Source: Pegethrix bostrychoides GSE-TBD4-15B (lineage in GTDB: Bacteria; Cyanobacteriota; Cyanobacteriia; Elainellales; Elainellaceae). Taken from it: DNA of 64,000 bases. Every line of letters starts with the position of its first letter. The first letter of the stretch is position 1. The stretch lies in NCBI GenBank assembly GCA_019359155.1, contig JAHHHV010000065.1, positions 1-64,000 on the forward strand, in the 5' to 3' direction. Positions 9,719-18,301 of the stretch are shown here, piece after piece. Below the pieces are notes generated by a model, which was not told the DNA's origin, ran no database searches, and was given only the letters and a program-made list of their open reading frames with translations. The translations under genes were made by a program, and so were the position numbers.

Positions 9719-10378
9719 TTACTTGGCCTGATCATAGCGCGACGAGACTGCCCCGAATCGATCCAGCGGCCAGTAGCGCCAAATCACCCGACCCAGCAGG
9801 TTTTGCTGCGGCAAGGCTCCCCAATAGTGGCTGTCAAAGGCGTTATTGCGGTTGTCGCCCAGCAGAATCAGCGCGTTGGCCGGGACGGTGACGGGCCCCC
9901 AAGTATAGGCGGCGGCCTCGCTGAGGTAGGGTTCGGCGAGCGGCGATTGATCGATGTAAACTTTGCCCTGCTTGACTTCGACTCGTTCACCCGGCAGGCC
10001 AACCACCCGCTTCACAAATACGGTCTGGTCATCTAGCGGCATAGCTCCTTGCAGCATGTCCATCAGCTGCTCAGACGGGCGAAAAATCACAACATCGCCG
10101 CGCTGAGGTGCAGCAGTTTGATAGCTGGCTTGATCCGCTAGAATCCGGTCGTTGACCTCAAAAGTGGGCTGCATTGACTCCGAGGGAATGTAGTAGGCGC
10201 GGTAGCGACCGGGCGAGCAGGCGGTGACGCAGCCAGCCAGCACCGTCAGCAGGTAGCGTGGACAGGAGGAGCGTGATCGCCAGATTGATCGCCAGATTAG
10301 TAGCCAGATTGATCGCCAGATCGACCGCCAAATTAGCAGCCGCTGCGGTTTGAAGATGGACAGTTGCAGAACTTGCAT
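9719..10378 (-). CDS. lepB: Signal peptidase I
   Basis: This membrane-anchored serine protease (S26) removes signal peptides from exported proteins. Of 219 residues, the catalytic half is intact: IPSESMQPTF carries the Ser nucleophile, VFVKRVVGLPGE the general-base Lys, and LGDNRNNAFDSHYWG is the conserved box E. The N-terminus is odd: residues 14-38 are WRSIWRSIWLLIWRSIWRS-like, encoded by a 12-bp tandem repeat at about 10275-10335, ahead of a weak hydrophobic stretch (LLTVLAGCVTA). The anchor therefore looks remodelled, or the true start is further in. It heads the lepB-uma2-moaA group. Confidence 0.92.
   Translation of the reverse strand: MQVLQLSIFKPQRLLIWRSIWRSIWLLIWRSIWRSRSSCPRYLLTVLAGCVTACSPGRYRAYYIPSESMQPTFEVNDRILADQASYQTAAPQRGDVVIFRPSEQLMDMLQGAMPLDDQTVFVKRVVGLPGERVEVKQGKVYIDQSPLAEPYLSEAAAYTWGPVTVPANALILLGDNRNNAFDSHYWGALPQQNLLGRVIWRYWPLDRFGAVSSRYDQAK
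10272..10336. repeat. 12-bp tandem repeat in the lepB N-terminus
   Basis: Units of the form GATCGCCAGATT recur four to five times in tandem with substitutions. The period keeps the lepB frame open and encodes repeated W-R-S-I. Confidence 0.8.
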
Positions 10379-10569: not shown

Positions 10570-12198
10570 GTGACTCTCCAAACCGAACAGCCTCCGATTC
10601 AATCATCGACTCAAACAGCCCAAGCACCCGCCGAGCGGCTCGACCGTCAAATGATTGCGATTCTGGACTTTGGCTCCCAGTATTCTGAGCTGATTGCCCG
10701 CCGCATCCGCGAAACCCAGGTTTACTCAGAAGTCTTATCGTATCGCACCACCGCCGAGCAGCTGCGGCAGCTCAGCCCCAAAGGGATTATTCTCTCAGGT
10801 GGTCCCAACTCGGTCTATGACGAAAACGCGCCCCACTGCGATCCCGAAATCTGGGATCTGGGCATCCCAGTTTTGGGGGTTTGCTACGGGATGCAGGTGA
10901 TGGTGCAGCAACTCGGCGGCGGCGTGGAGCGGGCTGAGCGCGGTGAATATGGTAAGGCAGCGCTGCTGGTCGATGATCCTGACAGCTTGTTTGCCGAAGT
11001 CGTGAACGGCATCACGATGTGGATGAGTCACGGCGACTCTGTGACCCACCTGCCGGAAGGCTTCAAGCTGCTGGCGCATACCGAAAACACGCCCTGCGCC
11101 GCCATTGCCGATCCGGAGCGTCAGCTCTACGGCGTGCAGTTTCACCCGGAAGTGGTGCATTCGCTGGGCGGTCAGGTGCTGCTCCGCAACTTTGTCTATC
11201 AGGTCTGCGCCTGTGAACCCACCTGGACAACCGATGCTTTTGTGGAAGAAGCGATCCGCGAAGTGAGAGCTAGAGTGGGCGACAAGCGAGTGCTGCTGGC
11301 GCTCTCCGGCGGCGTAGATTCCTCAACGCTGGCCTTTTTGATGTACCGGGCGATTGGGGAGCAGCTCACCTGCATGTTTATCGACCAGGGCTTTATGCGA
11401 AAGGGCGAGCCAGAGCGATTGCTGAAGCTATTTAAAGAGCAGTTTCATATCCCGGTAGAATATGTCAACGCGCGCGATCGGTTTGTCTCCAAGCTGCTGG
11501 GTGTCACCGACCCGGAAGAGAAGCGCAAGCGGATTGGGCATGAGTTTATTCGGGTATTTGAATCCGAGTCGAAGCGGCTGGGGCCTTTTGACTATCTGGC
11601 GCAGGGTACGCTCTACCCAGACGTAATCGAGTCTGCCGACACCAACGTTGATCCGCAGACGGGCGAGCGGGTGGCTGTCAAGATTAAGAGCCATCACAAC
11701 GTCGGCGGTTTACCCAAAGATCTCCAGTTCAAGCTGGTTGAACCGCTGCGGAAGCTGTTCAAAGACGAGGTGCGAAAAGTTGGGCGCTCGATTGGTCTGC
11801 CCGAAGAGATCGTCAATCGCCATCCGTTCCCCGGGCCCGGTCTGGCGATTCGGATTCTGGGCGATATCACCGACGAGCGGCTGGAGATTTTGCGGGACGC
11901 TGATCTAATTGTGCGGCAGGAGATCAACCGCAGCGGTGCTTATAGCGAGCTGTGGCAGGCGTTTGCGGTGCTGCTGCCCGTCCGCAGCGTCGGCGTGATG
12001 GGCGACCAGCGCACCTACGCCTACCCCATTGTGCTGCGCTTTGTCACCAGCGAGGACGGCATGACGGCTGATTGGGCAAGAGTCCCCTACGATTTGCTAG
12101 AAACCATCTCCAACCGCATCGTCAACGAGGTGCGCGGCGTGAATCGTGTCGTCTACGACATCACCTCGAAGCCGCCAGGAACGATCGAGTGGGAATAG
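10570..12198 (+). CDS. guaA: GMP synthase (glutamine-hydrolysing)
   Basis: The enzyme converts XMP to GMP with glutamine and ATP in purine synthesis. At 542 residues it is full length. The N-terminal glutamine amidotransferase has its Cys in [10 protein letters not shown] and its His-Glu in [10 protein letters not shown]. The ATP pyrophosphatase PP-loop is [11 protein letters not shown], and the C-terminal dimerisation domain ends [15 protein letters not shown] start is used with a weak AGGA upstream; the next in-frame Met ([10 protein letters not shown]) would lose only the non-conserved leader. It is followed by a strong hairpin. Confidence 0.97.
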
Positions 12199-12224
12199 AG
12201 CCAGGTTCAAAATAGCTTGAGCCA

Positions 12225-12262
12225 GCCGCCAGATTCGGTAATCTGGCGGCCTGTTAGTTTTG
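12225..12262 (+). terminator. Hairpin terminator after guaA
   Basis: A perfect 11-bp stem (GCCGCCAGATT at 12225-12235, AATCTGGCGGC at 12240-12250) with a CGGT tetraloop starts 26 bp after the guaA stop. The following CTGTTAGTTTT is only moderately T-rich, so termination may be partial. Confidence 0.7.
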
Positions 12263-12280
12263 GGGATAAATGGCTGACTC

Positions 12281-12354
12281 TGTGGAAAACCTAGCTAAAC
12301 TCTGTGGAAAACTCCTGTTAGCCTGTGGAAAACCTGCCAACTTTCTGTGGAAAA
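12281..12354. promoter_or_regulatory. Array of four DnaA-box-like 9-mers
   Basis: TGTGGAAAA, the complement of TTTTCCACA, occurs four times in direct orientation at 12281, 12303, 12324 and 12346. The spacing is 22, 21 and 22 bp, or two helical turns. TTTTCCACA is the cyanobacterial form of the DnaA box. A weak inverted relative (CTACCCACA) is at 12372. The array sits between the convergent guaA and helicase genes. There is no adjacent AT-rich unwinding element and no dnaA or dnaN in the window. Confidence 0.7.
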
Positions 12355-12452
12355 GCTCAGTGAGCCGCAATCTACCCACAGGACAGAATCAGGACATTTT
12401 TCAGGACAGAGGCCAAGATTTGAGTCTATCCCTAAGCTCCCTGATCGGGGCG

Positions 12453-14681
12453 CTAGATCAGCGGCTCAGCAAGCGGCTCTGAGACAATTTGGCGCAGCGT
12501 ATTCCAGGCTTTTTGAACATCGAGATAGCCGGCGGCATAGTTTTGGCAGAGCAGCGGCTCGCTCAGGAACTGGTCGTGCTTCTCGCTGACTTTGTTGGCC
12601 ACCGTGGCAGCTAAGTTCAGCGCCTCAGGACAGTCGGCAGCTAGCTCAGTTAAATGACGCAGCAACTTTTGAGGCGTGATCCGGCTGACAGTGAGCGCCA
12701 GGGTGCCAGTTTCCACTTTCAGGCCCAGCCCCGCCAGCTCCAACGCCAGCGTGTTAATCACCAGACTCCCCATCCAGGGGAAAATCAGCGTATCGCCACC
12801 TGCCTCGACGAGTTGCCGCTGGTCTAGCCCATAGCGGCGAAAGTTTTGACGAGCTTCGAGCAGCAGACTCCGAGCCGTTTCGTCTAAAAAGACCGGAAGG
12901 TCAGAATCGAGATAGATCTGCCACATCTCCTGCCGAATCCGGTCATGCACCAGACCCGCTGCGCCGCTAAAGTAGGGCACGCGCCCCGCCGTAGAGCGCT
13001 GCACGTCGATGACGCGATGGCGACGGTCGACCGCCAAAATCTGCCAGCGCTTGCCTGCAAAGATCAAATACATCCCTTCGATCAGCGGATAGTCGATCGG
13101 CAACGTGCCCAGCGTTTTGCCAGTCGTGGTAACGCGATATTCCTCAGGGGTTTTGAACGCCGTATAAAAGCTGTAGTGATTGACCAATCGCTCGCCCGTC
13201 AAGCCCAGCAGCAACAGCCCTTCTGGAGTTTGCTGAATCAGGTCTTGCTCTCCTAGACAGCGCAAGAGCTGCATGTAGGTAGACTGATCAACGCGGTCAA
13301 AAGCGCCAGTTTGGCAGAGCAGCTTCCAGGCGTAATCAGGCCGGATGCCGCTCTGTTGAGCAATCAGCGAGAGCAGCTGCTGGATCAGCGTCGAGAGGTG
13401 CAGCCGCTGGATTTGGGGCGGCTCGTACCAGCCTTGCAGCAGCAGATTTACCACCGCAATCGCCTGCACCAAAGCCGGATGTAGCGCTGCTTCGGGGGAG
13501 GTTTGGGGCGTGACTTCCGGTTCGCTGATGTAGATCCGCAGGATGGCCGGGTCACTCTGCTGCCGACCAGAGCGCCCCAGTCGCTGCCGGGTGCTGGCCA
13601 CCGAGTAGGGCGCACCAATTTGGGCAATTGAGGTGACAGAGCCGATATCAATGCCCAGTTCCAGCGTCGAGGTGCAGACGACGTTAGCCGGACGGTTGGG
13701 TTCTTTAAGAGCCTCTTCAGCGGCTTGTCTCAGCTCTTTGGAAAGGCTGCCGTAGTGGGGCATAAATTCATTGGGCAACCGCTGCATTTCGCAGAGACGG
13801 CTGAGCAGATCAGTATATTTTTCGACTTCCTGCCGTCGATTAATAAAGATCAAATTCTTGCTGCCGCGCATCACCTTGAAAATATGCCGCGCGATATCCA
13901 GCTCGTCTACTGTGCCGTCCTGCTCTTGTTCCTGTTCATCCAGAAATAAAGGCGCAGTTCTTCGATAGCCGCGAATTTGCAGCTTCAGCTCCTGTCCGGT
14001 GGCGCTGGACAGAATCAGCCTCACCTGGGCATCTCGCAAATACTGCTTGGCAAGATCCATTTCACCCAGTGTAGCGCTGAGGCCAATGCGGGCCACAGGC
14101 CGACCCAGAGCTGCCTCTAGCCGATGCAGCAAGGAGCGCAGCTGCTGACCTCGCTCAGTGCCAATGAAGGAATGTAGCTCGTCAATGACGGCGTAGCGCA
14201 GGCCGCTAAACAGCTGGGTGAGTTGATGCCCGCGCAGGATAAACATCGCCTCTAGTGCTTCAGGCGTGATCAGCAAAATGCCAGAAGGCTGTTTGAGCAG
14301 CCGCTGTTTGCGGGAGGCACTCACATCGCCATGCCACGGATGGACGGCAATTTCCAGGCGTTCACCCAGCGCTTCTAAGCGGCGATGCTGGTCGTTGATG
14401 AGCGCCTTGAGCGGGCTGATGTAGAGTACCTGAACGCTGTTGGCTTCTCTGTTTTCAGCTTCTAGCAGCTTTGAGAAAATCGGCAGAAAGGCCGCCTCAG
14501 TTTTGCCGCCTGCGGTGGCTGCCGCAATAATTAGATCGAGATTGCCTGCCAAAATTGGTGCAATCGCCTGTTCTTGAATATCGCGCAGCTCTGCCCAGTT
14601 TTGCTCCCAGATCCAGCGCTGCACCTCAGGATGGAGCTGGTGAAACGCAGAGGAGGCAAATTCGTCAGGAGCAGCAGCCAA
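12453..14681 (-). CDS. Lhr-like DEAD/DEAH-box helicase
   Basis: This is a 742-residue superfamily 2 helicase. Motif I is ATAGGKTEAAFLP, motif II is VIDELHSF, motif III is LSATLG, and the second RecA-like domain has CTSTLELGIDIGSV and the QRLGRSGRQQ arginine finger. A long C-terminal region with winged-helix-like character follows. The layout matches Lhr-type helicases of DNA repair or RNA processing; no partner gene is adjacent. The C-terminal third is less conserved-looking. It converges on guaA, with the DnaA-box array between them. Confidence 0.85.
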   Translation of the reverse strand: MAAAPDEFASSAFHQLHPEVQRWIWEQNWAELRDIQEQAIAPILAGNLDLIIAAATAGGKTEAAFLPIFSKLLEAENREANSVQVLYISPLKALINDQHRRLEALGERLEIAVHPWHGDVSASRKQRLLKQPSGILLITPEALEAMFILRGHQLTQLFSGLRYAVIDELHSFIGTERGQQLRSLLHRLEAALGRPVARIGLSATLGEMDLAKQYLRDAQVRLILSSATGQELKLQIRGYRRTAPLFLDEQEQEQDGTVDELDIARHIFKVMRGSKNLIFINRRQEVEKYTDLLSRLCEMQRLPNEFMPHYGSLSKELRQAAEEALKEPNRPANVVCTSTLELGIDIGSVTSIAQIGAPYSVASTRQRLGRSGRQQSDPAILRIYISEPEVTPQTSPEAALHPALVQAIAVVNLLLQGWYEPPQIQRLHLSTLIQQLLSLIAQQSGIRPDYAWKLLCQTGAFDRVDQSTYMQLLRCLGEQDLIQQTPEGLLLLGLTGERLVNHYSFYTAFKTPEEYRVTTTGKTLGTLPIDYPLIEGMYLIFAGKRWQILAVDRRHRVIDVQRSTAGRVPYFSGAAGLVHDRIRQEMWQIYLDSDLPVFLDETARSLLLEARQNFRRYGLDQRQLVEAGGDTLIFPWMGSLVINTLALELAGLGLKVETGTLALTVSRITPQKLLRHLTELAADCPEALNLAATVANKVSEKHDQFLSEPLLCQNYAAGYLDVQKAWNTLRQIVSEPLAEPLI

Positions 14682-18025: not shown

Positions 18026-18301
18026 ATGTCTGTCAAAGTATTAATCCCCACGCCGCTGCAAAAATTCACCCGTGATCAAGCCAGCATCGAATGCAGCGGC
18101 GGCAGCATCACCGAACTGCTCGACCAACTGGAGCAGGACTTTCCCGGCATCAAGGCGCGCCTCTGCGATGAGCAAGGCAACCTGCGCCGCTTCATCAACT
18201 TCTACGTCAACAGCGAAGATATCCGCTTCCTGGATGGGCCAAACACGGCACTGAATGCGGGCGATGAAGTCAGCATCGTTCCGGCGGTAGCGGGCGGCTA
18301 G
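18026..18301 (+). CDS. MoaD/ThiS family sulfur-carrier-like protein
   Basis: This is a 91-residue ubiquitin-like (beta-grasp) protein ending in VPAVAGG, the Gly-Gly tail that is adenylated and thiocarboxylated in sulfur carriers. Internal features fit the family: [22 protein letters not shown] and [19 protein letters not shown]. It follows thrC by 64 bp, so co-transcription is likely. It could serve molybdopterin synthesis, thiamine synthesis or another sulfur-transfer route; neither moaE nor thiG is nearby to decide. Confidence 0.9.

Follow-up and report, generated by a model that had tools for sequence, protein, structure and literature searches.

A conserved cluster of DnaA-box-like sites away from the presumed replication origin of the cyanobacterium Pegethrix bostrychoides GSE-TBD4-15B, and a second recurrent array beside DUF2811

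Four evenly spaced putative binding sites for DnaA, the protein that starts chromosome copying, lie downstream of guaA in Pegethrix bostrychoides GSE-TBD4-15B, away from the presumed origin. The array is one of two recurrent arrays outside oriC in cyanobacteria: site G, found 3' of guaA in 23 of 30 loci of the own family and beside another gene in the other 7, and site D, found 5' of the unstudied small gene DUF2811, a gene that tends to be absent when dnaA is lost. Clusters of DnaA boxes outside oriC are known from other bacteria, but the two recurrent addresses and the link with DUF2811 seem to be new. No paper in the library searched mentions DUF2811 or PF10929, and searches on DnaA boxes in cyanobacteria showed, in titles and abstract openings and without subscription journals and preprints, no report of arrays outside oriC. 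We consider a datA- or DBC-like, DnaA-binding regulatory site to be the best reading, and hold it with moderate confidence.

The observation made in the first-pass annotation of the window (the whole analysed stretch of 64,000 nucleotides) was confirmed. The sequence TGTGGAAAA on the forward strand, which is TTTTCCACA on the reverse strand, is found at 12281-12289, 12303-12311, 12324-12332 and 12346-12354, with steps of 22, 21 and 22 bp and in one orientation, so that the four boxes are exact reverse-strand sites within 74 bp. The window contains 6 exact sites where 0.40 are expected, and the largest number in 100 shuffles was 3. The whole genome (5,724,334 bases in 92 contigs) has 31 exact sites, against 17 for the pattern read backwards, and these four form its densest exact group. 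A weaker reverse-strand match, TTATCCCCA at 12261-12269, has two mismatches and lies 20 bp before the first box, and its spacing suggests a possible fifth position. The claim that all boxes lie on one face of the helix is approximate, considering that 65 bp corresponds to about 6.2 turns at 10.5 bp per turn.

The surroundings also agree with what had been noted earlier. The gene guaA (GMP synthase, named by recognition of the sequence; 10570-12198, forward strand) and a DEAD/DEAH helicase gene (12453-14681, reverse strand) converge on the site. The boxes lie beyond a terminator-like hairpin of 11 pairs (12225-12250, forward strand), which is weak evidence on its own as one was found against a mean of 0.7 in shuffles. 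No promoter-like match was found in 12100-12600, and the site gave no Rfam match. No ORF in the 20 loci of relatives that were compared matched the helicase, which resembles the ligase-associated DEXH helicases (TIGR04121) with 226 bits, far below the cut-off of 850.

The interpretation offered in the first-pass annotation, which left open a chromosomal origin, a DnaA-titration site like datA or a relic of tandem duplication, was partly supported: the first and the last are not supported by the data, whereas the second gives the best fit, but only as a resemblance. The second array and the link with DUF2811 lay beyond what that annotation could have seen. With respect to the origin, no dnaA or dnaN is near the site. 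The one dnaN match of the genome lies at position 53647 of contig C6 and the one dnaA match at position 95230 of contig C71. The region between dnaN and an era-like gene (again named by recognition) carries 2 exact and 5 one-mismatch boxes and a 50-mer with only 28% GC, whereas the lowest-GC 50-mer around the guaA site has 40%, so that no AT-rich element flanks the latter. Of the conditions set beforehand for rejecting the earlier readings, a box cluster near dnaN was thus found, pointing to an origin elsewhere, although it has fewer exact boxes than the guaA site, whereas an absence of conservation in relatives was refuted. Moreover, the cumulative GC skew does not turn at 12 kb within the window. 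In relatives in which dnaN shares a contig with the array, here in the neighbourhood of guaA or of the U195 gene described below, the distance between them (by subtraction of positions) is 574 kb (genome G024), 2,442 kb (G186), 480 kb (G118), 200 kb (G149), 236 kb (G303), 482 kb (G135), 1,589 kb (G018), 1,958 kb (G115) and 1,996 kb (G197). On the basis of sequence alone the site is therefore probably not the origin. A second or auxiliary origin also appears very unlikely. Some cyanobacteria do replicate from several origins (PMC7198777), but the multi-origin mode in that study is DnaA-independent, and the absence of a low-GC stretch, the skew and the variable distance from dnaN all speak against it.

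Such arrays are kept in many cyanobacteria. A pattern of three direct boxes with gaps of 8-30 bp occurs in 165 of 388 genomes of the class, and the reversed control gave 0 in the rows listed; positions in seven of the families (f3, f9-f11, f13, f24 and f26) were read from 38 chosen entries. In the own family guaA was found in 36 of 36 genomes and 30 loci were read. In 23 of these direct boxes lie 34-458 bp after guaA, 22 of them with at least two exact boxes, and most family loci have three or four boxes. The boxes keep one orientation relative to guaA. In the other 7 loci (G261, G180, G186, G152, G200, G207 and G166) a three- or four-box array lies 3' of a conserved ORF of about 195 aa (U195), which has no Pfam family and which in G138 and G125 is the convergent neighbour of guaA across the array. 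The array thus outlives its neighbours, and a function tied to guaA is unlikely because the array stays beside other genes where guaA lies elsewhere. However, the site is dispensable. Among 80 named guaA loci, some of them from the same genomes, 15 have 2-4 boxes and 65 have none; about half of the 65 appear to be Nostocales and 7 of them had less than 600 bp of downstream sequence. A further set of 36 of 138 guaA loci holds duplicate genomes and was not used.

A young tandem repeat is in the main refuted as an explanation. A tandem-repeat search (TRF) does report a weak short-period repeat (score 41), but the linkers within the array match at only 5-7 of 12-13 positions. In 8 distinct genomes with 22/21 steps, picked for exact boxes so that box identity is by construction, the linkers are 54% and the flanks 36% identical. 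Where two exact outer boxes 40-44 bp apart were used to pick 19 family loci, the middle box, which was not used for picking, is exact in 18 and one mismatch off in 1, whereas control offsets gave 0 exact boxes and 1 with one mismatch. In addition, the array recurs in many families.

A comparison of 95 clusters from loci that were chosen and not random revealed the second address. Of these, 36 lie 5' of a DUF2811 gene (PF10929) in 14 families, 27 at guaA in 9 families, 13 at partner genes of the guaA site, 4 at oriC, and 15 could not be assigned, some of which are perhaps origins. The loci of the own family were partly chosen because guaA lacked boxes there, and the 13 partner clusters rest on genes seen beside guaA sites elsewhere. 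Clusters with neither guaA, DUF2811 nor dnaN/dnaA beside them were found at six loci (L263, L264, L268-L270 and L273) in families f26, f13 and f3. Over 109 DUF2811 loci of genomes with dnaA, site D has 1.78 exact boxes per 800 bp; 101 loci have at least two boxes with up to one mismatch, 91 have at least three, and 9 have no exact box, while genomes G008 and G014 have only one and two one-mismatch boxes, respectively. These loci are the best 30 per search plus 40 chosen for family spread, leaving out three shorter loci (L292, L332 and L381) and one without a tblastn hit (L300, genome G295). In a set of 110 loci, which includes one locus (L330, genome G247, 83% complete) without a dnaA match and gives nearly the same figures, the opposite strand has 0.07 and shuffles have 0.015 exact boxes per 800 bp, so that exact boxes occur at about 120 times the shuffled rate, and the steps peak at 11, 21 and 22 bp. 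In G118 (L340) site D is present twice, about 127 bp apart and with the same box order. S. elongatus is the only one of 14 named control genomes with a DUF2811 match. In the own genome the DUF2811 site (contig C80, L286) has only degenerate boxes. Indeed, in the window's genus this site has 0-1 exact boxes in the five genomes read, whereas the guaA site has 3-4 exact ones in three of the five, a possible exchange of roles.

Site D appears to be linked to dnaA. Among 334 genomes that are at least 90% complete and at most 5% contaminated, dnaA is absent (no match, or E above 1e-6) in 13: G143, G150, G157, G299, G322, G341, G350, G353, G356, G359, G365, G383 and G386. DUF2811 is absent in 12 of the 334, and 10 genomes are in both sets. 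Thus, 10 of 13 genomes without dnaA lack DUF2811, against 2 of 321 others (Fisher p 4e-15, kinship ignored). The two latter genomes, G027 and G151, are drafts of 380 and 460 contigs. On a guaA tree the 10 dnaA-less rows that could be placed need 5 changes, 4 of which are forced by well-supported branches. The association is not absolute. G150 and G383 lack dnaA but keep DUF2811, G353 keeps a remnant with stop codons (L299), and six incomplete genomes (G093, G106, G247, G263, G314 and G355; 62-83% complete) without a proper dnaA match have the gene; over all 388 genomes, unfiltered, the table is 10, 9, 3, 366 (p 1e-12). The set of dnaA-less free-living species fits the published losses in Cyanobacterium and Geminocystis (PMC7198777), where we infer that family f36 is that group. 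G143 is a near-complete 3.8-Mb genome that lacks dnaA and DUF2811 and also gave no guaA match at E 1e-150. Another dnaA-less genome, G299, has box-like 21-bp tandem repeats at positions 18150-18200 of its contig C2 (L098), a contig of 26.7 kb that is perhaps a plasmid.

In the three near-complete dnaA-less genomes that keep DUF2811 or its remnant, the boxes are gone or decayed. Compared with its congener G326, which has boxes at -346, -324 and -302, G150 has no exact and no one-mismatch box, yet a promoter-like block, identified by eye between boxes and gene in G326, is kept. Compared with G347, which has dnaA, G383 and G353 show decayed boxes, although G383 still has one exact and two one-mismatch boxes and G353 one one-mismatch box. 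The dnaA test bears on site D only. No array follows guaA in any of 29 loci of the same panel, 19 with and 10 without dnaA, and two of these have one lone exact box at 663 bp.

The promoter-like block and the observation that site D stays 5' of DUF2811 in 14 families while other neighbours change could point to DnaA as a transcription factor of the neighbouring gene, with replication not involved. We consider this unlikely. The site D boxes lie mostly about 230-670 bp from the gene, site G lies between two gene 3' ends in this genome without a promoter-like match, and in G150 the block and the gene are kept without any box. A site for some other protein, or an RNA or terminator element that happens to use the same 9-mer, is very unlikely. 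The constant orientation relative to guaA would be in line with it, but the same motif is found at the presumed oriC and, with the same steps, at site D, the site D boxes are gone or decayed in the genomes just described, the arrays lie on opposite sides of their neighbour genes (3' at guaA and 5' at DUF2811), and there is no Rfam match.

In our view site G is a chromosomal DnaA-binding array outside oriC, with site D as its sister array. DnaA would bind the head-to-tail boxes side by side and be held there, and perhaps have its ATP hydrolysed, so that less active DnaA is left for oriC. This is how datA works in E. coli, and it is the proposed mode of action of the DnaA-box clusters of B. subtilis. 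What the analysis itself establishes is the presence of the boxes, their phase, orientation and conservation, their persistence when neighbour genes change and, for site D, the tendency of boxes and gene to be lost with dnaA. The binding of DnaA in this organism, its sequestration or inactivation and any effect on initiation are inferred by analogy. The motif is the DnaA box of cyanobacteria, for which assays are reported in Anabaena 7120 and Cyanothece 51142 (PMC4674748), and published ChIP-qPCR looked at oriC and a far control locus (PMC6478999, PMC7198777). The cyanobacterial oriC usually lies next to dnaN and has the same TTTTCCACA boxes, but the guaA site has no dnaN or dnaA neighbour and no low-GC stretch.

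The datA locus of E. coli is likewise a non-coding DnaA-box cluster away from oriC, and its essential boxes share one direction, which suggests head-to-tail DnaA contacts (PMC5742627); the boxes at site G also share one direction. It stimulates DnaA-ATP hydrolysis and represses initiation, and it has an IHF site between its boxes; the boxes studied here are 21-22 bp apart. The datA locus is oriC-proximal; the present genome is in 92 contigs, and in relatives the distance from dnaN varies from 0.2 to 2.4 Mb. In B. subtilis there are several chromosomal DnaA-box clusters (DBCs) outside oriC, and removal of six of them makes initiation early (PMC5295017), whereas here two recurrent addresses are kept over many families and one of them is tied to DUF2811. 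DARS1 and DARS2 of E. coli are also two loci and have a three-box core (PMC5742627). A DARS-like site, which would help ADP-DnaA to exchange ADP for ATP and so promote initiation, is an unlikely alternative. All boxes here point one way, as stated for the essential boxes of datA, but no sequence feature at the site separates the two activities.

A bolder possibility, which we regard as tentative and somewhat less likely than not, is that DUF2811 is a dedicated DnaA partner of cyanobacteria, a small regulator working at the arrays or on DnaA itself. Sites D and G together with DUF2811 would then form one lineage-wide DnaA-control system, older than the split of the main cyanobacterial families, that falls apart when a lineage gives up DnaA. 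Cyanobacteria range from strictly DnaA-dependent to DnaA-free replication (PMC7198777), and how initiation is restrained in them seems to be poorly understood. Two DnaA-box arrays at defined addresses would be concrete candidates for that control, testable in S. elongatus and in strains where dnaA is dispensable, and the co-loss with dnaA would be a first functional lead for DUF2811. A ribbon-helix-helix fold for DUF2811 was suggested by eye only and was set aside: Pfam listed no such family even with the limit at E 10, although the filters of HMMER drop most weak matches. NCBIfam gave only a sub-threshold unrelated hit, the best PDB sequence match had E 1, and no DUF2811 was found in viral contigs. 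Finally, upstream of guaA in the window, an ORF recognized as signal-peptidase-like (9719-10378, reverse strand) has repeated IWRS motifs near its N-terminus, a coding short tandem repeat.
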